Source: Oscillospiraceae bacterium (GTDB lineage: Bacteria; Bacillota; Clostridia; Oscillospirales; Oscillospiraceae). Taken from it: a DNA stretch of 32,233 nucleotides. A program made the position numbers and the translations under genes. The DNA lies in assembly GCA_017439425.1 (NCBI GenBank), contig JAFSJE010000042.1, positions 1 to 32,233 of the forward strand, read 5' to 3'. Below the pieces are notes generated by a model that made no database searches, was not told the DNA's origin, and saw only the letters and a program-made list of their open reading frames with translations. This document shows positions 2,050 to 29,771 of this stretch, piece after piece. Numbering within the stretch: the stretch's first letter is position 1; every line of letters begins with the position of its first letter.

Positions 2050-3960
2050 ATGACAAATCTTGACAATCTTTACATGACTAAGGACGACGCTTACCTCTTC
2101 CACGAGGGAACCTGGGCGGGGCTGTATGAGAAGCTCGGCGCGCATCCCGCCTCCGTTAACGGTCAGGATGGCTATTCCTTCGGCGTATGGGCGCCGAAGG
2201 TCAAGGCAGTTTCCGTCGTTGGAGATTTCAACAACTGGGACGAGAAGGCGCATCCTATGACGAGCGTTGACGGCGAGATCTGGGAGCTCTTCATCCCCGG
2301 CGCGAAGGAGTACGACAACTACAAGTTTGCCGTGACCGATAAGACCGGCGAGACGAGGCTCAAGTGCGACCCCATCGCCTTCCATGCCGCGACCCCGCCC
2401 GAAACTGCCTCAAAGCTCTACGATATCGACGGCTACGAGTGGCACGATAAGGCGTGGATGGACAAGCGCGCGAAGTCTAACCACATGGAGAAACCTCTCA
2501 ATATCTATGAGGTTAACTTCGGCTCCTGGAAGCGCTATGACGACGGCAACTTCTATTCCTACCGCGATCTTGCCGATTCTCTCGTACCCTACGCTGTCGA
2601 TATGGGATACACCCACATCGAGATCATGCCCCTTATGGAGCACCCGTTTGACGGCAGCTGGGGATATCAGATAACCGGCTACTATGCTCCCACGAGCCGC
2701 TACGGCACGCCGAAGGATCTTATGTACTTCGTGGATATGGCTCACAAGGCAGGCCTCGGAGTTATCCTTGACTGGGTGCCCGGCCACTTCTGCCCCGACG
2801 CTCACGGACTTGTCGCCTTCAACGGTGAGAAGCTCTATGAGAAGGAGCAGCACCCCCAGTGGGGCACCTATAAATTCGACTTCAGAAGGGGAGAGGTTCG
2901 CTCCTTCATGAAGTCCAACGCATTCTACTGGATCGAGCGCTACCATGCCGACGGTATCCGCGTCGACGGCGTTACGAGTATGCTCTATCTGAACTTTGGC
3001 GTCGACGACGACCGATTCAAGAAGTTCAATGAAAAGGGCACTGAGGAGGATCTTGACAACGTCAAGTTCATTCAGATCCTCAATAAGGAAATCGGCGCTC
3101 ACCACCCGGACGTTATGATGATTGCCGAGGAGTCCACCGCGTGGCCCCTCGTGACATATCCGCCTGAGGACGGCGGTCTCGGCTTCAACTATAAGTGGGA
3201 TATGGGCTGGATGCACGATACCCTCCACTATATGCAGGCCGACTTCCCGTACCGCCCCGGTGCGCACCACCTTCTGACCTTCTCGATGATGTACACCTTT
3301 AACGAGAACTTCATCCTCGCCCTCAGCCATGACGAGGTCGTTCACGGCAAGTGCAGCCTTATCGGCAGAATGCCGGGCGACTACTGGCGCCAGTTTGCAG
3401 GTATGAGAGCGCTCGCATTTTATCAGATCGCCCACCCCGGCGCAAAGCTGAACTTCATGGGCGCTGAGATCGCGGAGTTCATTGAGTGGCGCTACTATGA
3501 GGGTCTTGAGTGGTTCCTCCCGAGGGAGCACGAGGCGCACAGAAAGCACCAGGCATATATAAAGGCGCTCAACCACCTCTATAAGACCGAGAAGGCGCTC
3601 TATGAGCAGGGTTACAGCTGGGACGGCTTCGAGTGGCTTGACGCCGACAACTCCAAGCAGTCCATGATAAGCTTCATCCGCCGCGGCAAGCAGACCAAGG
3701 ATGAGATCGTAGTCCTTATAAACTTCTGCCCGGAGACGTATCAGGGCTTCCGCCTTGGAGTTCCGAGACCCGGCACGTATAAAGAGATCTTCAACTCCAA
3801 CGCCCCCGAATTCGGCGGCAGCGGAACTGATATGAATCCCGTTCCCATCAAGAGCGAGAAGATACCCTTCCACGGGCAGAAACAGTCCATCGCCATTTCC
3901 GTGCCTCCCATCGGCGGCGTGATGTTCAAGAGAACAAGCTCCGTTAAAAAGGAAAAATAA
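2050..3960 (+). CDS. glgB: 1,4-alpha-glucan (glycogen) branching enzyme, GH13
   Basis: GlgB cuts alpha-1,4 chains and reattaches them as alpha-1,6 branches on glycogen in the cytoplasm. The 636-residue protein has an N-terminal CBM48 domain (about residues 20-125, around FGVWAPKVKAVSVVGDFNNW). The GH13 barrel follows, with all four conserved regions visible: DWVPGHF (241-247), GIRVDGV with nucleophile Asp306, AEES with the acid Glu near 360, and SHDEVVHGK with His427-Asp428-Glu429. A C-terminal beta domain ends the protein. The length is normal for the short bacterial form. AAGGAAG lies 9 bases before the ATG. It is the first gene of the five-gene glg operon. C-ending codons are strongly favoured across this operon, which fits high expression. 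Confidence 0.96.
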   Translation: MTNLDNLYMTKDDAYLFHEGTWAGLYEKLGAHPASVNGQDGYSFGVWAPKVKAVSVVGDFNNWDEKAHPMTSVDGEIWELFIPGAKEYDNYKFAVTDKTGETRLKCDPIAFHAATPPETASKLYDIDGYEWHDKAWMDKRAKSNHMEKPLNIYEVNFGSWKRYDDGNFYSYRDLADSLVPYAVDMGYTHIEIMPLMEHPFDGSWGYQITGYYAPTSRYGTPKDLMYFVDMAHKAGLGVILDWVPGHFCPDAHGLVAFNGEKLYEKEQHPQWGTYKFDFRRGEVRSFMKSNAFYWIERYHADGIRVDGVTSMLYLNFGVDDDRFKKFNEKGTEEDLDNVKFIQILNKEIGAHHPDVMMIAEESTAWPLVTYPPEDGGLGFNYKWDMGWMHDTLHYMQADFPYRPGAHHLLTFSMMYTFNENFILALSHDEVVHGKCSLIGRMPGDYWRQFAGMRALAFYQIAHPGAKLNFMGAEIAEFIEWRYYEGLEWFLPREHEAHRKHQAYIKALNHLYKTEKALYEQGYSWDGFEWLDADNSKQSMISFIRRGKQTKDEIVVLINFCPETYQGFRLGVPRPGTYKEIFNSNAPEFGGSGTDMNPVPIKSEKIPFHGQKQSIAISVPPIGGVMFKRTSSVKKEK

Positions 3961-4014
3961 CAGGGCAACAAGGGATTAAACCCTTCTTATAAACAAACAG
4001 TTAGGAGAAACCCA

Positions 4015-6432
4015 ATGTTCAAAGACAAGCAGGAATTTATTTCACAGTACAAGGAGCTGTGCAGAACCGCCCTCGGCAGAGATTTTGAGGACTGCGATAA
4101 GAATGAGCGCGCTCAGATACTTATCCGCTTCATAGCCGCCAAGGCAAGAGTTCAGCGCAGCCAGAGCATGAAGGAAGTCGCTGAGAAGCACAAGAAGCAG
4201 GTTTACTACTTCTCAATGGAGTTCCTCATCGGCAAATTGCTTGAGAACTATCTTATGAATTTCGGCGTCATTGACACCGTTCGCGAGGGCCTTGGCGACC
4301 TCGGCGAGAACCTCGATGACCTTCTGAAGTACGAGCCGGATCCCGGCCTCGGAAACGGCGGCCTCGGCAGACTTGCCGCTTGCTTTATTGACTCCCTCGC
4401 TTCCCTCGGCTATGCCGGTCACGGCAACGGTATCCGCTACCGCTACGGCTTGTTCCATCAGGAAATTAAGGACGGCCGTCAGGTTGAGCTTCCGGATAAC
4501 TGGCTCGAGGATGGCTACGCATGGGAGCAGAAAAAGCCCGAAAATTCCGTTGTCGTTCGCTTCGGCGGCTCTGTAGAGTGCCGCATGGAGAACGGCGAAT
4601 ACAAGTATAAATGGGTCGGCGGAGAGCCTATTCTCGCCGTTCCGTATGACGTCCCCGTAGTCGGCTACGGCGGAAAGACCGTCAACACCCTCCGCCTCTG
4701 GCAGGCTGAGCCCTATAAGCAGGAATTCGATATGGACGCCTACAACCGCGGCGACTACTCCGGAGCCTTCAAGTTCCGCTCCGACGTTCACGCGATAACC
4801 GCAGTCCTCTATCCCTCTGACAACGCGGATCCGGGCAAGAAGCTCCGCTTAAAGCAGGAGTATATGTTCGTCTGCGCGGGAATCAATAACATTCTCCGCT
4901 CCTATGAGAAGGAATACGGCCCTGACTGGAAGCATCTCGCCGACCATGTCGCCATCCAGACTAACGATACGCACCCCTCTCTCTGCGGAGCCGAGCTTAT
5001 GCGTGTGTTCATGGATGAGAAGGACCTCTCCTGGGCTGAGGCGTGGGAGATCGTTACCCACACAGTAAGCTATACTAACCACACGATCCTCCCCGAGGCG
5101 CTCGAGAAGTGGCCAATCGATATGTTCCGCGCCCTTCTCCCGCGTATCTATGATATTGTTGAGGAGATCGACCGCCGCTATCGCGAGTCCTTCCCGCGCG
5201 ACAGAGAGAACTGGCAGGAGCTTCTCCGCGCCACCGCTATCCTCTGGGACGGTCAGGTCCGCACCGCGAATCTCTCCGTTATCTGCGGTCACGCCGTAAA
5301 CGGCGTTGCGGCGCTTCACACCGAGATACTCAAGGCTAACGTTCTCAAGGAGTTCTATCAGCTGACTCCCGAGAAGTTCAACAACAAGACGAACGGCATC
5401 ACCCACCGCCGCTTCCTCGCTCAGGCGAACCCGAGTCTTGCAAAGCTCATCACCGACTCCATCGGAGATAAGTGGTACACCGACTGCGACGAGCTTGAGA
5501 AGCTTCTCCAGTTCAAGGGCGACAGAGGATTTATGCTCGAAATGGAGAAATCCAAGAAGGAGAACAAGGTCCGCCTCGCAAACTACATTTACGAGACCAC
5601 CGGCGTCGCCGTCGATACAAACAGCATCTTTGACGTTCAGGTAAAGCGCTTCCACGCCTACAAGCGTCAGCTTCTGAACGTTCTCAAGATAATGGACCTC
5701 TACAACCGCCTCCTCACCGACCCGAGCTTCGATATGTACCCGACCACCTTTGTCTTCGCCGGCAAAGCGGCTCAGGGCTACGAGTTCGCGAAGGACGTTA
5801 TCCGCCTTGTCAACTCCGTTGCGGACGTTGTCAACAACGATAAGCGCGTAAGGGGCAGAATAAAGGTCGCGTTCGTCCCGAACTTCTCCGTTTCCAATGC
5901 TCAGTACATCTATCCGGCTTCCGACATCTCCGAGCAGATATCCACCGCCGGCATGGAGGCGAGCGGCACCGGCAACATGAAGTTCATGATGAACGGCGCA
6001 ATCACCCTCGGCACCCTCGACGGCGCAAACGTCGAGATCGCAAACGTTGTCGGCGATGAGAACATCGAGATCTTCGGCCTCAGGACCGAGGAGGTCGACC
6101 GCATGAAGCGCGAGCACAGCTACTTTGCGTGGGATCTCTACAACTCCGACGGGCGCATCAAGCGTATTGTCGATCAGCTCGTTGACGGCACCTACTCCGG
6201 ACTCTCCGGCGGCTTCAACGGCATCTATGATGAGCTTCTCCGCGCTAACGACTTCTTCTTCGTACTTCCCGACTTCCACTCCTATGTGAACGGCTGGCAG
6301 AAGCTCGAGAGCCTCTACGCCACCGACAAGCAGCGCTGGAACGAGATAAGCCTTACAAACATCGCAAGATCCGGCTTCTTCTCCTCCGACCGTACCATCA
6401 AGCAGTACGCCGAGGAGATCTGGGGTCTGTAA
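4015..6432 (+). CDS. glgP: Glycogen/maltodextrin phosphorylase, GT35
   Basis: GlgP releases glucose-1-phosphate from the non-reducing ends of glycogen, using phosphate and pyridoxal phosphate. The 805-residue length matches bacterial family members. Visible motifs are YYFSMEFLIGK near the N terminus, GLGNGGLGRLAACF (the glucan/active-site region), QTNDTHPS, NGITHRRFL, and the cofactor site EASGTGNMKFMMNGA. In that site Lys656 is the expected Schiff-base lysine. TTAGGAGAAA precedes the ATG with good spacing. It lies 54 bases after glgB in the same direction. A small AAGGG/CCCTT inverted repeat in the gap lacks a T-run. Its placement between glgB and glgC puts the degradative enzyme inside the biosynthetic operon. 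Confidence 0.96.
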   Translation: MFKDKQEFISQYKELCRTALGRDFEDCDKNERAQILIRFIAAKARVQRSQSMKEVAEKHKKQVYYFSMEFLIGKLLENYLMNFGVIDTVREGLGDLGENLDDLLKYEPDPGLGNGGLGRLAACFIDSLASLGYAGHGNGIRYRYGLFHQEIKDGRQVELPDNWLEDGYAWEQKKPENSVVVRFGGSVECRMENGEYKYKWVGGEPILAVPYDVPVVGYGGKTVNTLRLWQAEPYKQEFDMDAYNRGDYSGAFKFRSDVHAITAVLYPSDNADPGKKLRLKQEYMFVCAGINNILRSYEKEYGPDWKHLADHVAIQTNDTHPSLCGAELMRVFMDEKDLSWAEAWEIVTHTVSYTNHTILPEALEKWPIDMFRALLPRIYDIVEEIDRRYRESFPRDRENWQELLRATAILWDGQVRTANLSVICGHAVNGVAALHTEILKANVLKEFYQLTPEKFNNKTNGITHRRFLAQANPSLAKLITDSIGDKWYTDCDELEKLLQFKGDRGFMLEMEKSKKENKVRLANYIYETTGVAVDTNSIFDVQVKRFHAYKRQLLNVLKIMDLYNRLLTDPSFDMYPTTFVFAGKAAQGYEFAKDVIRLVNSVADVVNNDKRVRGRIKVAFVPNFSVSNAQYIYPASDISEQISTAGMEASGTGNMKFMMNGAITLGTLDGANVEIANVVGDENIEIFGLRTEEVDRMKREHSYFAWDLYNSDGRIKRIVDQLVDGTYSGLSGGFNGIYDELLRANDFFFVLPDFHSYVNGWQKLESLYATDKQRWNEISLTNIARSGFFSSDRTIKQYAEEIWGL

Positions 6433-6520: not shown

Positions 6521-7675
6521 ATGGCAAAGAAAAAAGAGTTCATCGCGATGCTCCTTGCCGGTGGTCAGGGATCGCGTCTCGGTGCGCTGACAAAGAGCGT
6601 CGCAAAGCCCGCCGTTTCATTCGGCGGCAAGTACAGAATCATCGACTTCCCCCTTTCAAACTGCGCCAATTCCCATATCGACACGGTGGGCGTGCTCACA
6701 CAGTATCGTCCTCTGCGTCTTAACGCGTATCTCGGCACGGGTCACGCGTGGGATATGAACGGCCGCGACGGCGGCGTATTCATCCTCCCGCCTTACGCGA
6801 CCGAGTCCGGCGCCGAGTGGTACAAAGGTACCGCCGACGCTATCTACCAGAACCTCGACTTCATTGATCTCTACGATCCCGAGTACGTCATCATCCTTTC
6901 CGCGGATCAGATCTACCGCATGGACTATCAGGATATGCTCGCAACTCACAAGAAGCACAACGCAGACCTCTCTGTCGCCGTCATGCAGGTGCCCTGGGAG
7001 GACGCCTCCCGCTTCGGCATCATGACCGCCAAGGAGACCGGCGAGATCGTAAAGTTCACCGAGAAGCCGAAGAACCCCGATTCCAACCTCGCCTCCATGG
7101 GTATCTACATCTTCACAAAGAGCGTTCTCAAGAAGGCTCTTATGGAGGACGCCGCCGATCAGAACTCCGAGCACGACTTCGGCAACAACATCATTCCGAA
7201 GCTCCTCGCTGAGGGCAAGCGCCTCTTTACTTATGAATTTGCCGGCTACTGGAAGGACGTCGGAACCTTCGGAAGCTACCATCAGACCAGCATGGAGCTT
7301 CTCGACGAGAATCCCGAGTTCGACCTCTACGATCAGGAGAATCCGATCCTCTCCAACACCAACTCTCAGCCGCCCCAGTACATCGGCGCCAACGGCTGCA
7401 TCAGACAGTCCATCGCCGCCAACGGCACACGCATCTTCGGCACCGTTGAGCACTCCGTTCTCGGAGCTGACGCCTTTGTCGGCGAGGGCGCTTATGTCAA
7501 GGATTCCGTAATTCTGCCCGGCGCCCGCGTTGAGGCAGGCGCAAAGGTCGTCCGCGCCATCCTCGGCGACGGTGCGATCGTAAAGGAGAACAGCGTTTTC
7601 GGCTCTGAGGACGAGTCAGTTGCTATCGCAGTTCTCGGAAATGAAGCCGTTTACGGCGTGGGAGGTAACGAGTAA
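6521..7675 (+). CDS. glgC: Glucose-1-phosphate adenylyltransferase (ADP-glucose pyrophosphorylase), catalytic subunit
   Basis: GlgC makes ADP-glucose from ATP and glucose-1-phosphate, the committed step of bacterial glycogen synthesis. The 384-residue protein starts with the nucleotidyltransferase fold: AGGQGSRL (13-20), [15 protein letters not shown], and LSNCANS. Further on are the metal/sugar regions [11 protein letters not shown] and GYWKDVGT. A left-handed beta-helix follows from about residue 290 ([19 protein letters not shown] and similar hexapeptides). Key residues of an active enzyme are present. GAAGGTG lies 7 bases before the ATG. Its TAA stop overlaps the glgD ATG by one base, so the two subunits are probably translationally coupled and made in a fixed ratio. 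Confidence 0.96.
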
Positions 7676-8778
7676 TGGATAGAGCAATCGGTATAATCAC
7701 TACTAACTACGAAACTCCCGATCTCAAGGAGCTCATAAACGGCCGTACCGCCGCTTCCGTCCCCTATGGCGGACGCTATCGCATGATCGACTTCTCCCTC
7801 TCCAACATGGAGAACGCAGACATCACAACAGTCGGTATCATCACCCCGTACAAGTACCGCAGCCTTATCGACCACTTCGGCGCAGGCAGCGAGTGGAACC
7901 TCGATCGCAAGATCGGCGGACTTTTCGTCCTGCCCGGCTCCGTCTTCGGTATCTCCACCAAGGGCAGCCGCTTCCTTCTCCGCGACTTCCGCCGCAACAT
8001 GGTCTTCCTCAGCCGCGCCAGCGCGAAGTACGTCGTAGTCACCACTGCGAATATCGTCGCCAACCTCGATTACAACAAGATGATCGACCAGCATGAGCAG
8101 TCCGGCGCAGATATCACCCTTGCTTATGTTGATGGCGTCCGCGATGATAACGACATCTCCACCATCGTCACCGACGAAAGCGGCAAGGTCAAGGACATCC
8201 TCCGCGGCGTAAAGAAGGGCGACAAGGCGTTTGTCGACTCCTTCGTCATCAGCTACGAGCTCCTTCTCAAGGTTCTCGACTGGTACGCTGCCATCGACTA
8301 CCTCGATCTCTTCGAGGCTCTCGCCGCCGACTTCGATAAGATGGACATCCGTCTCTTTAAGGTCGAGGGCTATCTCAGAAGCATCTATTCCGCCGGAAAC
8401 TACTTCCGCAACAGCATGGATCTTCTCAGACCCGAGGTTTCCGATGAGCTCTTCCGCCGCGATCGTCCCATCGCGACCAAGATCACCGATGCGCCTCCCA
8501 CCAAGTACGGCGCCGAGTGCGTCGTCAAGAACAGCCTTATCCCCGCCGGCTGCATCATCGAGGGCACCGTTGAAAACTCCATTCTCTTCCGCGGCGTAAC
8601 CGTCGGCAAGGGCGCAGTTGTCCGCAACGCCATCGTAATGCAGTCCTGCAAGATCGGCGACGGTGCTGTCGTTGAGAATGCTATCATCGACCGCTCCAAC
8701 AAGATCGAGGCCGGCTCCGTTCTCAAGGGAACACCCGAGAATATCCTCATCAAGGAAAAGAACGAGCTCGGCAACTGA
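7675..8778 (+). CDS. glgD: GlgD, non-catalytic/regulatory ADP-glucose pyrophosphorylase subunit
   Basis: GlgD is the Firmicutes paralogue of GlgC that pairs with it and raises its activity, with little activity alone in characterised cases. The 367-residue protein keeps the fold (SVPYGGRYRMIDFSLSN, then a beta-helix with VENSILFRGVTVGKGAVVRNA). The GGxGxRL nucleotide loop at the N terminus is replaced by IGIITTNYETPDLKEL, which explains the lost catalysis. Sequence after residue 200 (DYLDLFEAL, GYLRSIYSAGNYFRNSMDLL) is typical of GlgD. It overlaps glgC by one base. A perfect inverted repeat (8795-8815) follows before glgA. Confidence 0.95.
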   Translation: MDRAIGIITTNYETPDLKELINGRTAASVPYGGRYRMIDFSLSNMENADITTVGIITPYKYRSLIDHFGAGSEWNLDRKIGGLFVLPGSVFGISTKGSRFLLRDFRRNMVFLSRASAKYVVVTTANIVANLDYNKMIDQHEQSGADITLAYVDGVRDDNDISTIVTDESGKVKDILRGVKKGDKAFVDSFVISYELLLKVLDWYAAIDYLDLFEALAADFDKMDIRLFKVEGYLRSIYSAGNYFRNSMDLLRPEVSDELFRRDRPIATKITDAPPTKYGAECVVKNSLIPAGCIIEGTVENSILFRGVTVGKGAVVRNAIVMQSCKIGDGAVVENAIIDRSNKIEAGSVLKGTPENILIKEKNELGN

Positions 8779-11282: not shown

Positions 11283-11374
11283 TGGCGGAGAAGGAGAGAT
11301 TCGAACTCTCGAACGGCTTTTGACCGTTACACGATTTCCAATCGTGCGCGCTCGACCAACTACGCGACTTCTCC
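11283..11374 (-). tRNA. tRNA-Ser, anticodon GGA
   Basis: The 92-base length and long variable arm are typical of serine tRNA. The acceptor stem GGAGAAG pairs with CTTCTCC, followed by discriminator G and an encoded CCA. The anticodon arm CACGATT-GGA-AATCGTG gives anticodon GGA, reading UCC and UCU. The T arm carries GTTCGAATC. The gene is monocistronic, with a near-perfect promoter upstream and a terminator immediately downstream. Confidence 0.97.
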
Positions 11375-20963: not shown

Positions 20964-20992
20964 TTGACTACTTCGCTGAATTATGGTAAACT
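20964..20992 (+). promoter_or_regulatory. Putative SigA promoter of the hybrid ABC operon
   Basis: TTGACT (20964-20969), 17 bases, TAAACT (20987-20992). It is followed by a leader of about 95 bases and a strong AGGAGGT before ATG 21097. Confidence 0.65.
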
Positions 20993-21096: not shown

Positions 21097-23673
21097 ATGA
21101 AGAATTTTACCCGCACGCTGGCGCTGATTCTGGCGCTTGTAATGGTCATGGGCGCACTTTCCGGCTGCACGCCGAAGAGTGACGGAGACCCGACAAAGCC
21201 AAATGATAACCCCCCCTCCGGACCGAAGCCGGAGGATAACCCCGCTATTTCCGACCCGGACGGCTTCACCTACGTCGCAAGCTACTCAAAGCTCGACACA
21301 GGCGAGGACGGAATGTATTACGACGTGCGCTACGCCGCCGGCAAGCTCTGGTACACCACCTCGGAGTATGTCAGCGACCCCGTCTACAATGAAAACGGAG
21401 ACCAGATCGGTGATAACGGATATACAAAGACTTATCTATGGAATATGGACACCGACGGAAGCAACATTACGAAGCTCGAGGGCTTCGAGGCATACAAACC
21501 CGAGGAAGAGGGCTGGGACAACGCTTCGAGCTACATTCAGTCCATCGCCGACGCCGGCGACGGCAATATCTGGGTCGTAGAGAGCTATTACGCGAGCCGC
21601 AACACCGCTCCCGAGGGCATTGAGCCCTACTCCGAGCAGTGGTACAACTATCAGGAGTACAAAAACGGCGCGATAATCGCAAAGCTCGGCCCGGACGGCT
21701 CTGCGCTTGCCACCATTGATTCGAGCGCCATCGCGCCCGACGCGGATTACTTCTATATAAATGGTCTCATCCCGACAAAGGACGGCAAGCTTCTCGCCTT
21801 CAGCGATATGTCCTGCTATGTTCTGAGCACCGAGGGCGAGGTTGCCGGCGTGATTACGTCTGATAATTACTTCGGCTCCGTTGTTGCCCTGCGCGACGGC
21901 ACCATCGTCACACGCAGCTATGAGTATAACGAGCTTGACGGAACAGGCAAGGAAACGTGGAAGACCGTAGATATCGAGAATTTCAAGCTCGGCGACGAGT
22001 ACGACATCCCGTCCAAGGGCGACATCTATAACTACGTCACCGGCACCGGTGAATACGATCTCTACGGCATGGGTCAGAACGGCATCTTCGGCGTGAAGAT
22101 TGCCGAAGGCACCTGCGAGGAGATTGTGAACTACATAAACAGCGATATCGATATGAGCGATATCGGCAGCATCACCCCGCTTGACGACGGCACCTTCTTT
22201 GCCGTTTCCTCCACCTGGAACGATCAGGGCATGGAGATGAGCATTGTCAATATCCACCCGGTCAAAAACAGCGAGATCCCGGTCAGAACCGTTCTCACCT
22301 TTGCCTGCATGTACTTAAACTACAACGTCCGCAGGCAGATCCTTAATTTCAACCGCAACAGCGACAAATACCGCATCAAGGTCATTGATTACAGCCAGTA
22401 CAATACAGAGAACGACTGGGAAGCGGGTCTTACAAAGCTTACCACCGAGCTTCTTGCGGGCAACATCCCCGATATGTTCGATATAAATCAGCTCCCCGTA
22501 ACCCGCCTTGCGGCAAAGGGCTATCTTGAGGAGCTCACGCCGTGGATCGAGCAGGATACCGGCATCGGCGGCATGGCGGGACTTGTCGCGCCGATAATGA
22601 ACGCCGTCAAGGACGCTGACGGAAAGCTCTGGTACACCGTTCCGACGGCGTATCTCTCCACCGTAATGGCTCCGACGAGCCTCGTGGGCGACCTTGTACG
22701 CACAAATCCCGACGGCAGCGTTTACTGGACGATTGCCGACCTTATGGAGGCTTACAAGCGTATGCCTCAGGGCGCGGACATCTTCTCGAGATACTCCACC
22801 GCAACTGATATGCTCAGTGAGATCACCAGCTACATGATGGACGATCTCATAAACTGGTCCACCGGCGAGTGCAAGTTCGACTCTCCCGATTTCGTCGCAG
22901 CGCTCGAGTTCTGCAACCTCTTCCGCAAGACCCCGTATGACTGGGAGAAGGAGTACGATCCGAACATCGACGATTCCGAGGCCACCCGCTTCCGCGAGGG
23001 CAGACAGATGCTCTATCCCAACCAGATCAACGATTTCACAGGCTGGCGCCAGTACGACAGACTCTTTAATGGCGCGACATTCGTCGGCATCCCCGTTTCG
23101 AGCGGCAGCGGCAATGCGTGGAATATCTCAAATAACGGCACTATTGCGATGAGCAGCCGCTGCTCCGATAAGGAGGGCGCGTGGAGCTTCATGCGCTACT
23201 TCTTCACCGAGGAGTTCCAGACCAATAACTACGGCATCCCGACTAACAAGGCTGTGTTCGACAAGATGCTCGACGACGCCTGCACACCCCAGTATGAGGA
23301 TAACTACGACGAGAACGGCAACGTTATCGGCAAGGTCGAGATACCGAAGGACTGGTACTGGTACGGCGAGGGCGGCGGTGGAATCGTCTATGAGGATGAC
23401 GTCGCAGTTGCCGCGACAAAGCAGGCAGGCACTATCACCGGCCCGAGCGAGCAGTACCCCGCGGAGCAGTGCTTCTTTGCCATGACAGAGGAGGAGAGAG
23501 CAAAGATCGAGAGCGTCATAAACTCCACAACCCGCCTCGCCTCCGCCGATGAGAGCATCGTCACCATCATTCTCGAGGAGGCGGCTCCGTACTTCGACGG
23601 CAAGCAGACCTCTCAGCAGACCGCCGACACCATTCAGAGAAGAATCAATCTCTACGTCAACGAGCAGAGGTAA
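21097..23673 (+). CDS. Lipoprotein: beta-propeller-like domain fused to an ABC solute-binding domain
   Basis: The signal peptide ends in a lipobox LSGC with Cys24, so the protein should be anchored outside the membrane. A Pro/Asp-rich linker follows. Residues about 50-390 contain repeated blade-like units, such as AGKLWYTTSEY, AGDGNIWVVESYY, KDGKLLAFSDMSCYVLSTEGEV and LRDGTIVTRSY, typical of beta-propellers. From about 396 (VRTVLTFACMYL) to the end is a family 1 solute-binding domain (LTTELLAGNIPDMFDI, AAKGYLEELTPWIE, DGKLWYTVPTAYL, EGAWSFMRYFFTEEFQ). At 858 residues it is about twice the normal binding protein. AGGAGGT lies 6 bases before the ATG. It is the first gene of a six-gene operon with CUT1-type permeases. 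The ligand is unknown; a carbohydrate is inferred from the permease class. Confidence 0.85.
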   Translation: MKNFTRTLALILALVMVMGALSGCTPKSDGDPTKPNDNPPSGPKPEDNPAISDPDGFTYVASYSKLDTGEDGMYYDVRYAAGKLWYTTSEYVSDPVYNENGDQIGDNGYTKTYLWNMDTDGSNITKLEGFEAYKPEEEGWDNASSYIQSIADAGDGNIWVVESYYASRNTAPEGIEPYSEQWYNYQEYKNGAIIAKLGPDGSALATIDSSAIAPDADYFYINGLIPTKDGKLLAFSDMSCYVLSTEGEVAGVITSDNYFGSVVALRDGTIVTRSYEYNELDGTGKETWKTVDIENFKLGDEYDIPSKGDIYNYVTGTGEYDLYGMGQNGIFGVKIAEGTCEEIVNYINSDIDMSDIGSITPLDDGTFFAVSSTWNDQGMEMSIVNIHPVKNSEIPVRTVLTFACMYLNYNVRRQILNFNRNSDKYRIKVIDYSQYNTENDWEAGLTKLTTELLAGNIPDMFDINQLPVTRLAAKGYLEELTPWIEQDTGIGGMAGLVAPIMNAVKDADGKLWYTVPTAYLSTVMAPTSLVGDLVRTNPDGSVYWTIADLMEAYKRMPQGADIFSRYSTATDMLSEITSYMMDDLINWSTGECKFDSPDFVAALEFCNLFRKTPYDWEKEYDPNIDDSEATRFREGRQMLYPNQINDFTGWRQYDRLFNGATFVGIPVSSGSGNAWNISNNGTIAMSSRCSDKEGAWSFMRYFFTEEFQTNNYGIPTNKAVFDKMLDDACTPQYEDNYDENGNVIGKVEIPKDWYWYGEGGGGIVYEDDVAVAATKQAGTITGPSEQYPAEQCFFAMTEEERAKIESVINSTTRLASADESIVTIILEEAAPYFDGKQTSQQTADTIQRRINLYVNEQR

Positions 23674-23691
23674 CGTCGGCGTAAGCTTCAT

Positions 23692-23818
23692 ATCATGCGC
23701 TCTACCACTGAGGGGCGCGGCAGAGCTTATTCATTACGCTGCGCCTCCTTTTCCACACAAAAGCATCGCTTTTGTGTGGATGTCAGGGGCTGGCATGGGC
23801 GGGTCTCCGTACCCGCCC
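23692..23818. repeat. Cluster of hairpins between the binding-protein and permease genes
   Basis: Three inverted repeats lie in the 200-base gap: GGCGC (near 23713) with GCGCC (near 23740); a 13-base stem at 23752-23764 and 23768-23780 around ATC; and GGGCGGGT (23797-23804) with ACCCGCCC (23811-23818). None has a T-run. In known importers such structures protect the binding-protein message. At 23692-23712 the minus strand resembles a tRNA D-arm (CTCAGTGGTAGAGCGCATG), with no tRNA around it. Confidence 0.7.
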
Positions 23819-23877
23819 GCTTACTGTGTAATACTAAAAGAAAGCAGGTGAGCGTTATCGTTTCCCTGAAAGAAAAA

Positions 23878-24810
23878 ATGGCGAGGAAGGCTCGCCTGAA
23901 GGAAATACGCGGCCCCATAACCGCAAAGGAGCGGGCGGAGGGAGTGCTCCTGAAGCTGAAGGACGCGCTGTCCTCACTCCTGTTCTCCGGCCCGAGCTTT
24001 ATCGGCGTGCTCATTTTCTTCATTGTACCCTTTGGCGTTGTAGTTTACTACTCGCTCATTCGCTCAAGCCTCAATCCGGAGTTTGTCGGGCTTGACAACT
24101 ACCTCAATCTCATAAAAAACTCAACCTTCCAGACCGCCGCGAGGAACACGGCGATTTTCTCTGCTACGGCGGTTCCGCTCGCGGTGGTGCTGAGCCTTGT
24201 GCTGGCGCTGCTGCTCGACACGCGCATACCGCTCAAGAGCCAGTTCAGAACCTTCTTCCTCAGCCCGATGATGGTGCCGGTGGCTTCAATAGTCCTCATC
24301 TGGCAGGTGCTTTTCAATCAGAACGGCGTTGTCAACGACGTGACTGCGCTCTTCGGCGCAGAGGCGATAGACTGGTTCAAATCCGACCACGCGCCGCTCG
24401 TTGTTATTCTGCTCTTTCTGTGGAAAAACCTCGGCTACAACATGATACTCTTCATGTCTGCGCTGGCGAATATCCCGACGGAGCTATTGGAGGTCGCGGA
24501 CGTCGAGGGCGCGAGCCCGCTGTATAAGTTCTTTGCGATAAAGCTCCGCTACCTCAGCCCGACGGTGCTTTTCGTGGCGATACTCTCGCTAATCAACTCT
24601 TTCAAGGTTTTCCGTGAGGTGTATCTGCTCACCGGCAACTACCCGTTTGACTCGCTCTACACTCTCCAGCACTTTATGAACAATATGTTCAAATCCCTCG
24701 ACTATCAGAAGCTCTCCGCCGCGGCAGTCATGATGGCAATCGTGATGGTAGTCATAATCGCCGTTCTGTTCATCGTGGAGGATTGGTTCGGAAAGGACGT
24801 GGAGGGATGA
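23878..24810 (+). CDS. ABC importer permease, MalF type (CUT1 class)
   Basis: This is one of two membrane-spanning subunits, forming the translocation path with its partner at 24807. The 310-residue protein has a basic N-terminal tail, then six membrane segments (first around FSGPSFIGVLIFFIVPFGVVVYYS). The cytoplasmic EAA-type coupling loop is at about residues 202-222 (ELLEVADVEGASPLYKFFAIKL). PSFIGVLIFF and RTFFLSPMMVPVAS are typical of MalF-like permeases. The start is uncertain: ATG 23878 has only a weak purine-rich site, while an in-frame GTG at 23848 would add ten residues. The reading frame open further upstream crosses the hairpin cluster and is not coding. It overlaps the next gene by 4 bases. 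Confidence 0.9.
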   Translation: MARKARLKEIRGPITAKERAEGVLLKLKDALSSLLFSGPSFIGVLIFFIVPFGVVVYYSLIRSSLNPEFVGLDNYLNLIKNSTFQTAARNTAIFSATAVPLAVVLSLVLALLLDTRIPLKSQFRTFFLSPMMVPVASIVLIWQVLFNQNGVVNDVTALFGAEAIDWFKSDHAPLVVILLFLWKNLGYNMILFMSALANIPTELLEVADVEGASPLYKFFAIKLRYLSPTVLFVAILSLINSFKVFREVYLLTGNYPFDSLYTLQHFMNNMFKSLDYQKLSAAAVMMAIVMVVIIAVLFIVEDWFGKDVEG

Positions 24811-25688
24811 AGAAAAAGCATTACATCGGCAGGGCGATTACTTTTATTGCCTGCCTCATCTTCGCTTTCGCGTTTCTTATGCCTACCGTGCTGACGATCA
24901 CGAACAGCTTTATGACAGAAACCGAGATCGACGCAAACTACGGCGCGGTCTTCGGAACGGCAAATACCGGCAAAACCTACGTTTCTGAGAAGGTCAATCT
25001 GAAATTCATTCCGGACAAGGTGAGCTTTTCACAGTATATCACCGTGCTCTTTAAGAGTCCGGACTATCTCTTCAAATTCTGGAACAGCGTTATCCTCGTA
25101 GTGCCGATAGTCTTTTTACAGCTCGGCATCGCATCGCTTGCCGCCTACGGTTTCACGCGGTGGCGCGGCAAAATAAGAGCGGCGATATTCTTCTTCTACG
25201 TCATCCTTATGCTGATGCCGTATCAGGTAACGCTTGTGCCGAACTACCTCGTTTCTGACTGGCTCGGCATAATCAACACGCGCTCGGCGATAATACTCCC
25301 AGGCGCGGTGGCGCCGTTCTCCGTCTTTCTTCTGACGAAGTTCATGCGAAGAGTGCCCTATTCGCTCATCGAGGCCGCGAAGATCGACGGCGCGAGCGAG
25401 TGGCACGTTTTTACGAAGATCTGCCTGCCTCAGTGCAGGGCGGCTCTGTTTTCAATCGCAATTCTCGTTTTCATCGACTATTGGAACATGGTCGAGCAGC
25501 CGCTCATCCTGCTGGCTGATGAAACGCAGCAGCCCTTGAGCGTATTTTTGAGCAAAATAAACGCCGGCGAGGTCGGACTTGCCTTCGCCGTTGCTACGAT
25601 ATATATGGTGCCGACGCTGCTGCTGTTCCTCGGCGGCGAGGAATACCTCGTCGAGGGAATCGCGCATCAGGGCTCAGTAAAGGGGTAA
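24807..25688 (+). CDS. ABC importer permease, MalG type (CUT1 class)
   Basis: This is the second permease subunit. The 293-residue protein has six membrane segments. The coupling loop is LIEAAKIDGASEWHVFTKICLPQ (Glu189-Ala-Ala...Asp-Gly-Ala), a clear MalG-type EAA motif. Between the first and second segments is an extracellular stretch of about 70 residues (DANYGAVFGTANTGKTYVSEKVNLKF...). This is longer than in maltose permeases and could contact the external proteins of the operon. ATG 24807 overlaps the TGA of the previous gene (ATGA). GGAGGG sits immediately against the start, and AAGGA lies about 10 bases upstream. Confidence 0.92.
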   Translation: MKKKHYIGRAITFIACLIFAFAFLMPTVLTITNSFMTETEIDANYGAVFGTANTGKTYVSEKVNLKFIPDKVSFSQYITVLFKSPDYLFKFWNSVILVVPIVFLQLGIASLAAYGFTRWRGKIRAAIFFFYVILMLMPYQVTLVPNYLVSDWLGIINTRSAIILPGAVAPFSVFLLTKFMRRVPYSLIEAAKIDGASEWHVFTKICLPQCRAALFSIAILVFIDYWNMVEQPLILLADETQQPLSVFLSKINAGEVGLAFAVATIYMVPTLLLFLGGEEYLVEGIAHQGSVKG

Positions 25689-25692
25689 TACC

Positions 25693-27564
25693 ATGGAAGA
25701 AAAGAAGAATAAGAGAGGCTGGGTCAAGACTGCGGCGATCGTATTTCTGTCCGTTCTGCTTGTGCTGACCTTCTTCTCAAATACTATTATGAATGCGACT
25801 CTGCCCGAGGTTGCGATCCGCACCGTCACGAGCGGGTCGATAAACGTGCAGATCCGCGGCACCGGCACTGTCAAGGCGACCGAGACCTATAACGTAACAG
25901 TCGACGAGAGCCGCAAGGTGAGAAGCGTAAATGTCAAGCTCGGCGACGAGGTATCTGTCGGCGACCTTATTATGGTTCTGAGCGACGAGTCGAGCGAGGA
26001 GCTTGTAGAGGCAGAGGCCCAGCTCAAGGCCGCCAGGCGCGAATACGAGCGGCTTCAGCTTTCCGGCGGCACCACGTCCGCTTACCGTCAGCTTACCGAC
26101 GCGAAGGCGGCACTTGCCGAGGCAGAGAAGCTGCTTGCAAACGTAGCTGACTACGACGCCGCCGTTGCCGAGGCCGAGGCTAAGGTCAAGGCGGCAGAGG
26201 CTGAGGTCAAAAATATCTCCGTTCAGATAAAGTCGATTGAAAAAACGCTTAAAAAGTACGGCGTTGAGGGAGAACTGTCCGAGGACACGATCGAAAGTCT
26301 CAGGGATCTGCTCTCTCAGGATTCCGACAGCGTAAGAATTGCGGCGGTTGAGCTCGAGCTGGCGGCGAAGCGATATAAGGTCTATTATGACAATATCGCG
26401 GATGAGGCCAGGCGCATCATTATGCTTACTGACGGATACCTCGCGCTTGATGACGAGGCGGCTCAGAAGAAGTACGTTGAGGACAGGCTCGATGTCTATA
26501 TGGATGATGAGTACGAAAAGACCAAGACGGGCGAGAGCGTTCTAGTGCTTAATGAGCATGAGTGGGAATTCAGAGACGGCGAATATACTTTTAAGATAGA
26601 ACCGGAGCTTCAAGCGGATTACGAGGTCGGCTACAAGACCTATAAGGATGCGCTGACGAAGTATAATACCGCCGTCGCGCAGTACGCAGCGGCGAAGGGC
26701 GACGAGCTGCCCGATTTCATCGCACTGTGCGAAAAGACGTATGCTGACAGTGCTGCCGCAAAAGACGCCCTGACAAAAGCCGAAACCGCTCTCAGTGACC
26801 TCAAGAAGCTCGACCCGAGCACCCTTACCGACCTCAGGCGCGCCGTTACCGACGCTCAGCAGGCGTATAACCTCGCTTCCTTCGATTACTCAAATCAGCT
26901 TAATGACGCTAAAGCCAACATTGAAAAGCTCGAGGCGGAGGTTGCGAAATACTCCGGCGTACAGACCGGAACTGAGATCCACAGCGAGATAAACGGCGTA
27001 ATCAAGCAGATAAACGTCTCTGCCGGCGCCAAGACCACGCCCGACAGCACCCTCGTAGCTATCGAGGTGCCGGACAGAGGCTACACCGCCGAGATGAGCG
27101 TGACCATTGACCAGGCGCAGCGCGTTATGATCGGCGACACGGCTGAAGTGCAGTCCGGCTGGTGGTGGGGCGGCAGAGATATTACCGCCCGCCTCGTCGC
27201 TATCCGCACCGATCCGCAGACTGCAAGAACAAACCGCATTCTTGTGTTCGACATCTCCGGCTCCGACGTAAACTCCGGCGATACGCTGAACCTTACCATC
27301 GGCGAGCGCAGCCGCAGCTTCGACACGATCGTGCCGAAGAGCGCGATGAGAAGCGACTCAAACGGCGACTTTGTTCTCATGGTCGTCGCGCGCCAGAGCC
27401 CGATGGGCAACCGCTACACCGCGCAGAGAATCGACGTAACCAAGCTCGCTGAGGACGATGTGAACGTAGCAGTTTCCGGCGACCTCAGCTATAACGACGC
27501 CGTTATAACCACCACTACCGCGCCCATCTCAAGCGGTATGCAGGTAAGAATGGCAGGTAATTAA
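25693..27564 (+). CDS. HlyD/MacA-like membrane-fusion (adaptor) protein with a long coiled coil
   Basis: An N-terminal membrane anchor (about residues 11-33) is followed by the first half of a lipoyl-like/barrel domain (GSINVQIRGTGTVKATETYNVTV, then VRSVNVKLGDEVSVGDLIMVLSDE). A very long, charged, Ala/Glu/Lys-rich hairpin (about 98-430) reads as coiled coil with a small inserted segment. The second lipoyl half (EINGVIKQINVSAGAKTTPDSTLVAIE) and a barrel-like C-terminal region follow. At 623 residues it is much longer than MacA or YknX (about 370-380). These adaptors normally assist ABC or RND exporters. Here it is inside an importer operon, 4 bases after the MalG-type permease. A Gram-positive cell has no TolC, so the coiled coil would project into the wall. 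Confidence 0.85.
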   Translation: MEEKKNKRGWVKTAAIVFLSVLLVLTFFSNTIMNATLPEVAIRTVTSGSINVQIRGTGTVKATETYNVTVDESRKVRSVNVKLGDEVSVGDLIMVLSDESSEELVEAEAQLKAARREYERLQLSGGTTSAYRQLTDAKAALAEAEKLLANVADYDAAVAEAEAKVKAAEAEVKNISVQIKSIEKTLKKYGVEGELSEDTIESLRDLLSQDSDSVRIAAVELELAAKRYKVYYDNIADEARRIIMLTDGYLALDDEAAQKKYVEDRLDVYMDDEYEKTKTGESVLVLNEHEWEFRDGEYTFKIEPELQADYEVGYKTYKDALTKYNTAVAQYAAAKGDELPDFIALCEKTYADSAAAKDALTKAETALSDLKKLDPSTLTDLRRAVTDAQQAYNLASFDYSNQLNDAKANIEKLEAEVAKYSGVQTGTEIHSEINGVIKQINVSAGAKTTPDSTLVAIEVPDRGYTAEMSVTIDQAQRVMIGDTAEVQSGWWWGGRDITARLVAIRTDPQTARTNRILVFDISGSDVNSGDTLNLTIGERSRSFDTIVPKSAMRSDSNGDFVLMVVARQSPMGNRYTAQRIDVTKLAEDDVNVAVSGDLSYNDAVITTTTAPISSGMQVRMAGN

Positions 27565-27575
27565 AGGACTATTCT

Positions 27576-28637
27576 ATGAAAGCATTTCTGTTAAAAAACA
27601 GAAAAATCGTGATTTCGGTGCTGATCGCGCTCCTTTGCGTGATTCTGACGGGCGTGACGCTCGTGAGATATTTCTCGCTCGCCACGCTTCTCGGAAGTCA
27701 GCAGGCGGCCGAGGCGTTCAAGGGCGAGAGCGATAAGCTCACCGCGCAGGTGAGCGCATATTTCCCGGTGGGCGGCGGAATAACCTTCGAGGGAGTCTAC
27801 TCCTTCCGCAATAATCTCGACAGTAAATACGTCGACGCAAGCATCGAAAAGCCCGCCGTCGGCGCAAACTGGAAGGACGGGTACTCCGCGAAAAGCTCAA
27901 TCTCCGTCTCCGGCGCGAAGGCGACAACGGACTGCACGGTGTACGGCGTCGGCGGAGAGTATTTCTATTTCCACCCGCTTTATCTGCGCGACGGCAGCTA
28001 TATCTCCGAGTCCGATCTCGTCCACGACTGCGTTATCCTCGATGAGGAGCTTGCATGGCGCCTTTTCGGCGGCTTCGAGCTTGAGGGAATGACCGTCACC
28101 ATCGGCGACAAGCCGTTCCGCATCGCCGGAGTTATCCGCCGCGAGGACGATTTTGCCACGAAGAGCGCATATTCCGACGGAGCCGTGATGTATATGCACT
28201 ATGACGCGCTGAATGAGCTTCAGGAGTCGAAAATAACGACCTATGAGCTTGTCGGCGTCGACCCCATTGACGGATTTCTGAAAAACATCGTTGCGGAGGG
28301 CTTTTCGGAAGCCGCTGTTGTCGAAAACAGCGCAAGGTTTATGCCGCTCAATGAGCTTAACGTCCTCTCGCGCTACTTTACGCGCACGATGGTAACAGAG
28401 CCGGTGGTCTATCCCTATTGGGAAAACGCCGCGCGCAACGTGGAATCGCGGCTTGCGCTGCTGCTCATTCCGGCGGCTGTGCTGCCGATCTATCCGATTG
28501 CTCTTGCAATCTACTGGGCGGTGCGCGGCATCAAGGCGGCAATTAACGCACTGAAAACCGCTATCCCCGACGCGCTGGATAAAATCAGCGAGCGCCGCTA
28601 CGAACGCAGTATGAGAAAGAAGGCTAAAAATGGCTGA
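27576..28637 (+). CDS. MacB periplasmic-core-like membrane protein lacking the FtsX domain
   Basis: The 353-residue protein has one membrane segment near the N terminus (about 11-30) and one near the C terminus (about 292-315), with a large extracellular domain between. Residues about 135-215 (DCVILDEELAWRLFGGFELEGMTVTIGDKPFRIAGVIRRED) match the MacB_PCD signature: LA-x-x-LFG, then an I-G-x-x-F-x-I-A-G-V-I strand pair. True MacB/FtsX permeases have four segments, with a three-segment FtsX core at the end. Here only one segment remains, followed by a basic tail, so it cannot form that permease alone. AAAGGA lies 8 bases before the ATG. It overlaps the ATPase gene by 8 bases and directly follows the membrane-fusion protein, its usual partner. 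Confidence 0.75.
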   Translation: MKAFLLKNRKIVISVLIALLCVILTGVTLVRYFSLATLLGSQQAAEAFKGESDKLTAQVSAYFPVGGGITFEGVYSFRNNLDSKYVDASIEKPAVGANWKDGYSAKSSISVSGAKATTDCTVYGVGGEYFYFHPLYLRDGSYISESDLVHDCVILDEELAWRLFGGFELEGMTVTIGDKPFRIAGVIRREDDFATKSAYSDGAVMYMHYDALNELQESKITTYELVGVDPIDGFLKNIVAEGFSEAAVVENSARFMPLNELNVLSRYFTRTMVTEPVVYPYWENAARNVESRLALLLIPAAVLPIYPIALAIYWAVRGIKAAINALKTAIPDALDKISERRYERSMRKKAKNG

Positions 28638-29736
28638 GGTCACACTTAAACACGTCTGGAAGGTCTATAAGGACAGCGGCGTCGAGGCTGTAAAGGACTT
28701 CAACCTCGAGATAAAGGATAAGGAATTCGTCGTTTTCGTAGGCCCGTCCGGCTGCGGAAAGAGTACCACTCTCCGCATGGTCGCGGGACTTGAGGAGATA
28801 TCCGGCGGCGAGATCTTCATCGGCGGCAGGAAGGTAAACAATGTTCAGCCGAAGGACAGAGATATTTCGATGGTCTTCCAGAACTATGCCCTCTATCCGC
28901 ACATGTCGGTATTCGACAACATCGGCTTTCCGCTCCGAATGCGCCATTTCCCGCGCGCTGAGATAAAGCGCAGGGTAGAGGAGGCGGCGGATATCCTTGA
29001 GATACGCGACCTTCTGAAGCGCAAGCCGAAGGCTCTCTCCGGCGGTCAGCGTCAGCGAGTCGCTATCGGCAGAGCGATAGTGCGCGAGCCGCAGGTATTC
29101 CTTATGGATGAGCCGCTCTCGAACCTGGACGCAAAGCTCCGCAATCAGATGCGCACAGAGCTTATTAAGCTAAGAGAGCGCATAAACACGACATTCATCT
29201 ACGTTACCCACGATCAGACCGAGGCGATGACTCTCGGCGACCGCATTGTAATTATGCACGACGGCGTGATCATGCAGGTCGGAAGCCCGAGCGAGGTGTT
29301 CAATAAGCCTGAAAATACCTTTGTCGCAGGCTTTATCGGAATGCCGCAGATGAACTTCCTCGATGGCGAGCTGAAGATGGGTGCAGAGAGCGCTTTTGTC
29401 ACTGTCGGAGGCAAGGAGATCGCGCTGAACGCCGACCACTTCGAGCGCCTCAAGGCACACGGCGCAAGGAACGGCAGGGTAACATTCGGCATACGTCCCG
29501 AGCACTTCGAGATGAAGGAGGGCGGAATCGCCGCGAAGGCGGATGTCAGCGAGCTAACCGGCAGTACCTTGAACGTACACGCGAAGATCGGCGACGCTGA
29601 CGTTGTCGCGGTCGTGCAGATAGACGAGGACGACGCTGAGCCGCCGAAGCCCGGAACTCCGATCTCCCTCGTTCCCGAGCAGAAGAGAATCCATATCTTC
29701 GACCCGGATACGGGCAAGAGCCTGTTATACGGATAA
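28630..29736 (+). CDS. ABC transporter ATPase, MsmX/UgpC type (carbohydrate importer)
   Basis: This 368-residue protein is the only ATPase in the operon. It has Walker A GPSGCGKST (38-46), a Q-loop in MVFQNYALYPHMSV, signature LSGGQ (136-140), Walker B VFLMDEP (Asp160, Glu161) and H-loop His194. The C-terminal regulatory OB/TOBE region (GRVTFGIRPEHFEM and after) marks the CUT1 importer class, not MacB-type ATPases, which are about 230 residues with no such tail. The ATG lies inside the end of the previous gene (8 bases of overlap), with GAAGG about 6 bases upstream. A terminator follows. It should power the MalF/MalG-type pair. Similar ATPases often serve several importers. Confidence 0.94.
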   Translation: MAEVTLKHVWKVYKDSGVEAVKDFNLEIKDKEFVVFVGPSGCGKSTTLRMVAGLEEISGGEIFIGGRKVNNVQPKDRDISMVFQNYALYPHMSVFDNIGFPLRMRHFPRAEIKRRVEEAADILEIRDLLKRKPKALSGGQRQRVAIGRAIVREPQVFLMDEPLSNLDAKLRNQMRTELIKLRERINTTFIYVTHDQTEAMTLGDRIVIMHDGVIMQVGSPSEVFNKPENTFVAGFIGMPQMNFLDGELKMGAESAFVTVGGKEIALNADHFERLKAHGARNGRVTFGIRPEHFEMKEGGIAAKADVSELTGSTLNVHAKIGDADVVAVVQIDEDDAEPPKPGTPISLVPEQKRIHIFDPDTGKSLLYG

Positions 29737-29741
29737 ATTAT

Positions 29742-29771
29742 ATCGGTCAGCAGATTGCTGGCCGATTTTTA
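29742..29771 (+). terminator. Rho-independent terminator of the hybrid ABC operon
   Basis: ATCGGTCAGCA (29742-29752) pairs with TGCTGGCCGAT (29756-29766), with one G-T pair and a 3-base loop, followed by TTTTATT. Confidence 0.88.

Follow-up and report, generated by a model that had tools for sequence, protein, structure and literature searches.

Introduction

Gram-positive bacteria lack an outer membrane to which their membrane-fusion adaptors could extend. We know of no such adaptor, and of no MacB-core protein, in MalFGK2, UgpABCE, AlgM1M2SS, or other CUT1 importers of the ATP-binding cassette (ABC) superfamily. Two reviews state, respectively, that many of the Gram-positive adaptors are encoded in operons with macB homologs (PMC5985334) and that their presence at all implies functions other than bridging (PMC4446572). 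Here we describe an operon at positions 21097-29736 of a 32,233-nucleotide stretch of DNA from an Oscillospiraceae bacterium (contig JAFSJE010000042.1, assembly GCA_017439425.1; the whole stretch is called the window), in which genes for a HlyD/MacA-type membrane-fusion protein (MFP) and a MacB-core protein (PCD protein), together termed the pair, accompany those of a CUT1-type importer. The set is a recurrent, barely noticed variant of the CUT1 importer, and its composition suggests that an importer has taken over the outer scaffold of an export pump.

An earlier note on this DNA, made from the letters alone, knew of no described system with this set, and in doing so overlooked transporter C of C. 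thermocellum. The binding protein of one relative in our collection (locus L193) is identical over 437 residues to CbpC (Cthe_2128) of that transporter, and L193 is therefore C. thermocellum. In Yan et al. 2022 (PMC9601137), the gene names that the legend of Fig. 1 gives for the transporter clusters include "acra" and "hp", the latter a hypothetical protein; their placement in a particular cluster is taken here from L193, and "acra" is probably its MFP-type gene. The adaptor is not discussed in passages of that paper or of four other papers that report or cite the expression or binding of CbpC. Among the papers listed by searches of open-licence PMC, none describes an importer with an MFP or PCD protein in its title or the start of its abstract.

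The window operon shares its permease, ATPase, and binding-protein families with MalFGK2, UgpABCE, and AlgM1M2SS, but most of the ordinary CUT1 loci compared have a MalG motif that differs from the window type. With MacAB-TolC and YknXYZ, type VII ABC systems that use an adaptor, it has in common the MFP and the PCD fold; it differs from them in having no MacB or YknY ATPase, no FtsX domain, two membrane helices in the PCD protein, and importer permeases. Transporter C (CbpC, Cthe_2125-2128 region) resembles the window operon in its binding protein, two permeases, MFP-type gene, and PCD protein. Unlike in the window, the transporter C PCD protein (473 amino acids) has about six predicted membrane helices rather than two, the binding protein (460 amino acids) is without the extra beta domain, and no MalK-type ATPase is seen in the fetched stretch of L193. 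In L193 the MFP gene falls into two frames that overlap, and cbpC is separated from the permease genes by a MoxR-like AAA gene (6634-7987 and 9932-10780 of L193); because of the split MFP, the transporter C copy may be atypical.

An importer operon containing an exporter-type adaptor pair

The open reading frame (ORF) listing of the window confirmed six co-directional ORFs on the plus strand in the order binding protein, MalF, MalG, MFP, PCD protein, and ATPase, and for all but the binding protein Pfam and NCBIfam bore out the families that the earlier note had named. The binding protein (21097-23673, 858 amino acids) had no significant Pfam or NCBIfam match from its single sequence and was assigned by profile and structural model, with CbpC (7x0o) as best PDB match. 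The MalF-type (23848-24810, 320 amino acids) and MalG-type (24807-25688) permeases both match BPD_transp_1, and EAA loops were read by eye in both; MalG carries the motif FIDYWNMVEQP. The MFP (25693-27564, 623 amino acids) has a single N-terminal membrane helix, which is conserved, and its lipoyl halves are separated by a long insert; the protein matches HlyD_3 over the cut-off and RND_mfp, at 87 bits, just under it. The PCD protein (27576-28637, 353 amino acids) consists of a first membrane helix (TM1), the PCD, the sequence VVYPYWENAAR, a second membrane helix (TM2), and a C-terminal helix. It matches MacB_PCD (E 1.8e-10, 41.9 bits against a cut-off of 27), and the Pfam scan found no FtsX match in it. 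The last gene (28630-29736) encodes a MalK/UgpC-type importer ATPase with matches to ABC_tran, OB_MalK, TOBE_2, and UgpC, each over the cut-off.

The earlier note described four junctions as overlapping or lying within 11 bases, which the measured distances show to be right: MalF ends at 24810 and MalG probably starts at the ATG at 24807 (overlap of 4), MalG ends at 25688 and the MFP starts at 25693 (gap of 4), the MFP ends at 27564 and the PCD protein starts at 27576 (gap of 11), and the PCD protein ends at 28637 with the ATPase starting at 28630 (overlap of 8). Its observation that an exporter ATPase and a full MacB permease are missing also holds for the operon, whose sole ATPase is of the UgpC/MalK type and not of the MacB/YknY type; the eight FtsX matches over the cut-off in the window's genome all lie on other contigs.

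The pair travels with one type of MalF/MalG permease

With the PCD protein as query, matches at E <= 1e-3 were obtained in 29 of 99 genomes, one of them the window's; in 22 of the 29 the match was at E < 1e-39. The 39 PCD loci belong to records labeled Oscillospiraceae, Lachnospiraceae, Ruminococcus, and other Clostridia. With a PCD profile, 108 of 391 genomes of the class matched at E <= 1e-8 with split scores: 23 genomes, again including the window's, score more than 120 bits, and there is a low-scoring tail, under 80 bits, mostly of larger proteins, some of them ordinary FtsX permeases (control L147) and some members of this system (L145, L146, and others). Apart from the window's genome, 22 exceed 120 bits, and 17 of these were fetched; in them the MFP adjoins the PCD protein and MalF-MalG lie in front, except in G239, where the contig begins inside the MFP gene. 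In the remaining five a permease lies within about 3 kb by coordinates. The candidate explanation that the window holds a one-off operon fusion was rejected, the set recurring in both the PCD and the permease searches.

Loci L039-L097 had been found through the PCD protein itself, and so linkage was judged on searches with the permease; bit scores below are those of the MalG/permease match unless a profile is named. Across the 391 genomes of the class, the permease-only search gave 44 loci scoring at least 240 bits, spread over 42 genomes; 38 of the 44 carry the pair, five of them with the PCD gene placed by coordinates from the PCD profile search, and with L193, despite its MFP in two frames, counted as a carrier. 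The six that fall short are three contig ends (L199, L196, and G239/L157), L219, whose PCD frame is in two pieces, a second locus of L198 with only a small MFP-like frame of 146 amino acids, and L203. A search of the phylum added six loci at 240 bits or more (L210-L215), all six with the pair; the permease was matched at E <= 1e-45 in 12 of 398 genomes, and the system is thus uncommon outside the class. The gene-set search that the earlier note had proposed therefore finds the MFP and PCD protein nearly always travelling with this permease type, and the claim made there, that the pair is encoded with importer permeases rather than beside its own MacB ATPase and permease, is upheld.

Pooling all loci and applying a loose cut-off of 15 bits, an MFP was found in 70 and both partners in 65 of 71 loci at 420 bits or more; between 320 and 420 bits all 16 loci have both; between 240 and 320 bits 10 of 11 have an MFP and 8 have both; and between 200 and 240 bits 7 of 7 have an MFP and 4 have both. 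Below 200 bits, among ordinary CUT1 importers, nine loci contain one short MFP-like frame and no PCD protein (0/9). Importers lacking the pair, which the earlier note had held would speak against the link, are thus what ordinary CUT1 loci show (9/9 without PCD), but not what this permease type shows, the 200-240 bit range being mixed. Strict cut-offs exclude ten loci that score at least 240 bits: five short stretches with the PCD placed by profile-search coordinates (L152, L160, L162, L164, and L165), the contig ends L157, L196, and L199, and L219 and L203.

At strict cut-offs the pair is present in 92 loci, 86 of them in the order MalG-MFP-PCD; in 76 of these 86 the gap between MFP and PCD genes is at most 30 bases, as measured from mechanical ORF starts. 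Two of the six differently ordered loci reflect overlapping ORF starts (L043 and L077), and one is a range effect, the second L198 locus being among the 92 only because the first module falls within range. Three are truly reordered (L191, L202, and L209, the latter two from one genus), and in these the pair remains in the locus. The PCD protein of L046 is present but displaced by a longer ORF in one gene listing. A MalK-type gene occurs in 18 of 80 fetched stretches of at least 12 kb. According to passages of Yan et al., a standalone ATPase gene serves transporter B (PMC9601137), which fits the modules here that have no adjacent ATPase gene. Sequence and comparison show MalF and MalG of these loci to be a permease type of their own. 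Its genes are nearly always accompanied by those of an MFP and a PCD protein, most often as MalF-MalG-MFP-PCD; the binding protein lies before or after the pair and permease genes, and the operon ATPase, where present, is of the importer type.

Near divergent permeases we also saw small MFP-like proteins of 122-252 amino acids with one predicted membrane helix (L203 5771-6139, L218 8527-9180, and L207 4444-5202). They gave no Pfam match and are possibly a minimal form of the adaptor.

Exporters in the carrier genomes

Linkage of this kind could also arise if the pair merely shared an operon by chance, as a remnant of a MacAB/YknXYZ exporter that works independently of the importer, using an ATPase and permease from other loci. 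ATPase-MFP-MacB sets are indeed present in carrier genomes away from the module: the outside MFPs at L269 and L270 each lie in a set of ATPase, MFP, and PCD plus FtsX permease. Of two other outside MFPs, that at L266 lies beside a PCD plus FtsX permease and that at L267 beside an RND pump. One module, L047, even has an exporter set next to it. The exporter sets examined have MFPs of their own, however, and the four outside MFPs indicate that these bacteria keep ordinary exporters alongside. In 12 genomes searched with an MFP profile (11 carriers; G337 is not one), MFPs outside the module reach at most 56 bits. The near-constant linkage across families, in three gene orders, and the conservation of the MFP membrane helix and the PCD motif described below speak further against chance sharing, and we regard it as very improbable.

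The earlier note had also named relatives with the pair beside its own full MacB set as evidence against its view. A MacB-type permease was found in 1 of 97 fetched module stretches, which is a lower bound because many stretches are short and only two query permeases were used. In the one case, L047, a complete YknXYZ-like set of MFP, ATPase, and PCD plus FtsX permease lies directly upstream of the module (2165-6020); the exporter set has its own MFP and the pair stays with MalFG. On this count, with the same limits of short stretches and two queries, the candidate explanation that the pair belongs to a neighboring MacB exporter was rejected.

Conservation at the level of the membrane

The model of the PCD protein (pLDDT 89.5) has TM1 at residues 9-36, the PCD at about 56-265, and TM2 from 281, followed at the C terminus by a long helix that is probably cytoplasmic. 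Foldseek matched the model to MacB (5gko, E 1.6e-12) and YknZ (5f9q, E 1.3e-10) with low whole-query TM-scores, and MacB structures match over the PCD region by sequence profile. The PCD protein of L056 (10001-11653) is fused at its C terminus to a HAD-type phosphatase domain, which fits a cytoplasmic C terminus. The sequence VVYPYWEN ahead of TM2 is invariant in 37 aligned PCD proteins, the window's included.

In all three proteins conservation is concentrated near the membrane. The MFP membrane helix (residues 11-40) scores 0.74 against 0.21 for the insert, the PCD motif (277-287) 0.90 against 0.35 for the PCD, and the MalG motif (222-236) 0.90 against 0.66 for the whole protein. The stretch between the lipoyl halves varies from 154 to 530 residues across 36 MFPs, and in the binding protein the beta domain (0.22) is less conserved than the binding domain (0.38). 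Fixed parts at the membrane and variable parts outside are what would be expected of an adaptor docked on a permease with an adjustable reach, but a conserved MFP-PCD assembly alone would show part of this pattern too. The MalG motif reads WNxxE in 92 of 92 pair-bearing loci; among ten MalG proteins without the pair, six read WNDY and two read EQP as the carriers do. Pairwise distances of MalG, MFP, and PCD protein correlate at 0.88-0.92 (the highest of 500 permutations reached 0.26), a result that is also predicted by shared descent alone.

These comparisons give good support to the view that the pair works with the permease. As to how, we lean slightly toward a CUT1-type ABC importer whose own, dedicated extracellular adaptor sits on the permease and holds the binding protein in place; such a scaffold, an idea already put forward in the earlier note, is, by a little over an even chance, the best of the mechanisms considered. 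The MFP membrane helix and the membrane-proximal PCD motif would bind the outer half of MalFG, and the MFP and PCD protein would associate through MacA/MacB-like surfaces into a collar above the permease. The MFP insert of variable length could then reach into the wall and position the binding protein, whose extra beta domain may bind wall or substrate, and MalK-driven opening and closing of MalFG would carry the solute inward and perhaps shift the collar as well. A more specific version, in which Bacillota possess an importer class whose MFP-PCD collar on MalFG spans part of the wall and passes substrate from a tethered, propeller-bearing binding protein to the permease, is put forward tentatively and seems somewhat less probable than its opposite. 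If it is true, an adaptor-equipped importer would be the import counterpart of the tripartite pump. An adaptor and MacB-core protein tied to importer permeases would give Gram-positive adaptors a second role and a concrete set of partners, and could bear on solute uptake through the thick wall in fiber-degrading bacteria, the system being found in a minority of gut and fiber-degrading Clostridia.

Forms of the PCD protein and a possible role in sensing

The form of the module varies with distance from the window. At 420 bits or more (65 loci), with helices counted by a hydropathy rule, the median length of the PCD protein is 368 amino acids, with two membrane helices in 55 of 65, and the medians of MFP and binding protein are 614 and 812 amino acids. 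At 320-420 bits (15 loci) the PCD median is 462 amino acids, with 5-6 helices in 12 of 15, and the other medians are 431 and 460. At 200-320 bits (12 loci) the PCD median is 403 amino acids, with four helices in 7 of 12, the MFP median is 440, and that of five binding proteins is 755. The two-helix PCD protein is thus the form of the window's kin; long binding proteins are not confined to one branch. The last PCD helices were likely lost in the window's branch, to judge from these predicted helix counts. A Pfam scan of nine relatives gave a MacB_PCD match in each, that of L202 falling below the cut-off, and no FtsX match; the exporter control L147 shows both.

According to a review (PMC5985334), MacB itself links ATP hydrolysis to work done outside the membrane, with no transport across it. 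By analogy, the ATPase might act through MalFG to drive or read the PCD-MFP collar, the work being done outside, such as ligand release or signaling to a kinase, instead of uptake. The four to six predicted helices in most PCD proteins of deeper relatives would suit such mechanotransmission or sensing, as would a histidine-kinase cluster in 9 of 57 loci (one member checked), a response-regulator cluster in 5 of 57, and HisKA as commonest neighbor family, though it accounts for only 5 of 125 proteins. Yet there is no conserved partner kinase and none is seen beside the window operon; and in near kin the PCD protein has two helices and no FtsX, leaving no known coupling element. We consider this reading rather unlikely. 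A member of the histidine-kinase-type cluster, in some cases with one of the response-regulator type, was seen near the module at L042, L045, L048, L087, L090, and L096.

The binding protein and the nature of the substrate

The binding protein begins with a lipoprotein signal, LSGC, read by eye. Its model (pLDDT 82) comprises an all-beta domain (57-395) and a CUT1-type solute-binding fold (398-858). The profile of its relatives matches CbpC (7x0o) with E 1.6e-42 over the C-terminal half, and Foldseek likewise ranks CbpC first for the model; by these profile and fold matches it is placed among the family-1 solute-binding proteins. Weak beta-propeller profile matches over part of the N-terminal half indicate that the all-beta domain is probably a beta-propeller.

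The substrate is probably an oligosaccharide, although another solute derived from the envelope or from fiber would also be conceivable. The CUT1 label would mislead if it were instead a fixed envelope substrate, such as a wall fragment, lipid, or peptide, and the system were not a sugar importer. In favor of this are the much stronger conservation of MalG (median identity 54%) than of the MFP (26%) and PCD protein (22%), a comparison within the module and not with ordinary MalG, as well as the housekeeping neighbors and the failure of CbpC to bind sugars, both described below. On the other side, the binding-protein and permease profiles are nearest to carbohydrate systems (AlgM2 and MalG are among the PDB matches of the permease profiles), several binding proteins per permease in L128 and L130 suggest varied ligands, and there is an association with glycoside hydrolase family 9 (GH9). 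We consider a fixed envelope substrate unlikely.

GH9 cellulase genes are commoner in genomes with this permease (18 of 37 against 31 of 354, p 9e-9), and by genus, in a hand count, the enrichment is moderate (6 of 19 against 15 of 203, p 0.004). The test used one cut-off, permease E <= 1e-80, so that selection of the 37 genomes depended on the permease score, irrespective of the pair; pair-bearing genomes with weaker scores (G274, G082, G376, G394, G206, and G432) stayed on the comparison side, and one of them, G274, has GH9.

Several observations weigh against a sugar importer with a dedicated adaptor. L203 is a true exception at 240 bits or more, with no pair and only an MFP-like frame of 122 amino acids, and two MalG proteins bear the EQP motif without the pair. 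The window's own genome has no GH9 match. Neighboring genes are mostly of housekeeping type: in a scan of 125 of the 132 proteins listed (seven operon ATPases were left out), the commonest Pfam families were HisKA (5), ABC_tran (4), and HAMP, PDZ, and AAA_21 (3 each), with housekeeping enzymes next, and neither a glycoside hydrolase nor a LacI-type regulator was among the 25 commonest of 169 neighbor families. A substrate guess from neighboring enzymes thus found no support in the neighbor families. Finally, in the passages of Yan et al. on transporter C, its inactivation left growth on glucose, cellobiose, and Avicel normal, and CbpC, whose pocket is blocked by a loop, bound none of the tested sugars, in conflict with an earlier report of binding (PMC9601137). 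An importer of the kind preferred here, with an adaptor docked on its permease, offers a candidate explanation for the silent transporter C.

Signals around the operon and minor observations

The earlier note gave the operon one promoter and one terminator; the single promoter is putative. A terminator-like hairpin of the intrinsic type followed by a T-run lies at 29742-29766 on the plus strand; it has 11 pairs, the most of the 15 hairpins found (10.2 expected). The best plus-strand promoter match upstream, at 20964-20992, agrees at 9 of 12 positions and has a TG before the second hexamer, but promoter-like sites are no more frequent than by chance (5 against 5.5 in shuffles).

The MalF ORF, listed from 23695, is probably too long, the true start being the GTG at 23848. 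In L039, whose PCD protein is 85% identical, the ATG at 23878 is an AAG and the MalF ORF opens at the GTG equivalent to 23848, giving 320 amino acids in both. The first junction is therefore a gap of 174 bases (23674-23847, plus strand). The piece 23674-23870 folds at -83.4 kcal/mol against -61.6 in shuffles (z -4.94, no shuffle equally good), with two strong hairpins in the gap (23753-23779 and 23797-23818). The gap sequence is nearly invariant in two kin, and parts of it recur at nine further sites of the genome; one additional match is its own inverted repeat. Such a structured gap could keep the binding-protein mRNA in excess.

A plasmid search gave no match. Divergent from the operon, a perfect consensus promoter of the sigma-70 type lies on the minus strand (20941-20913) before an O-acetylhomoserine sulfhydrylase gene, and a tRNA-Ser (GGA) gene occupies 11283-11374 of the window, also on the minus strand.

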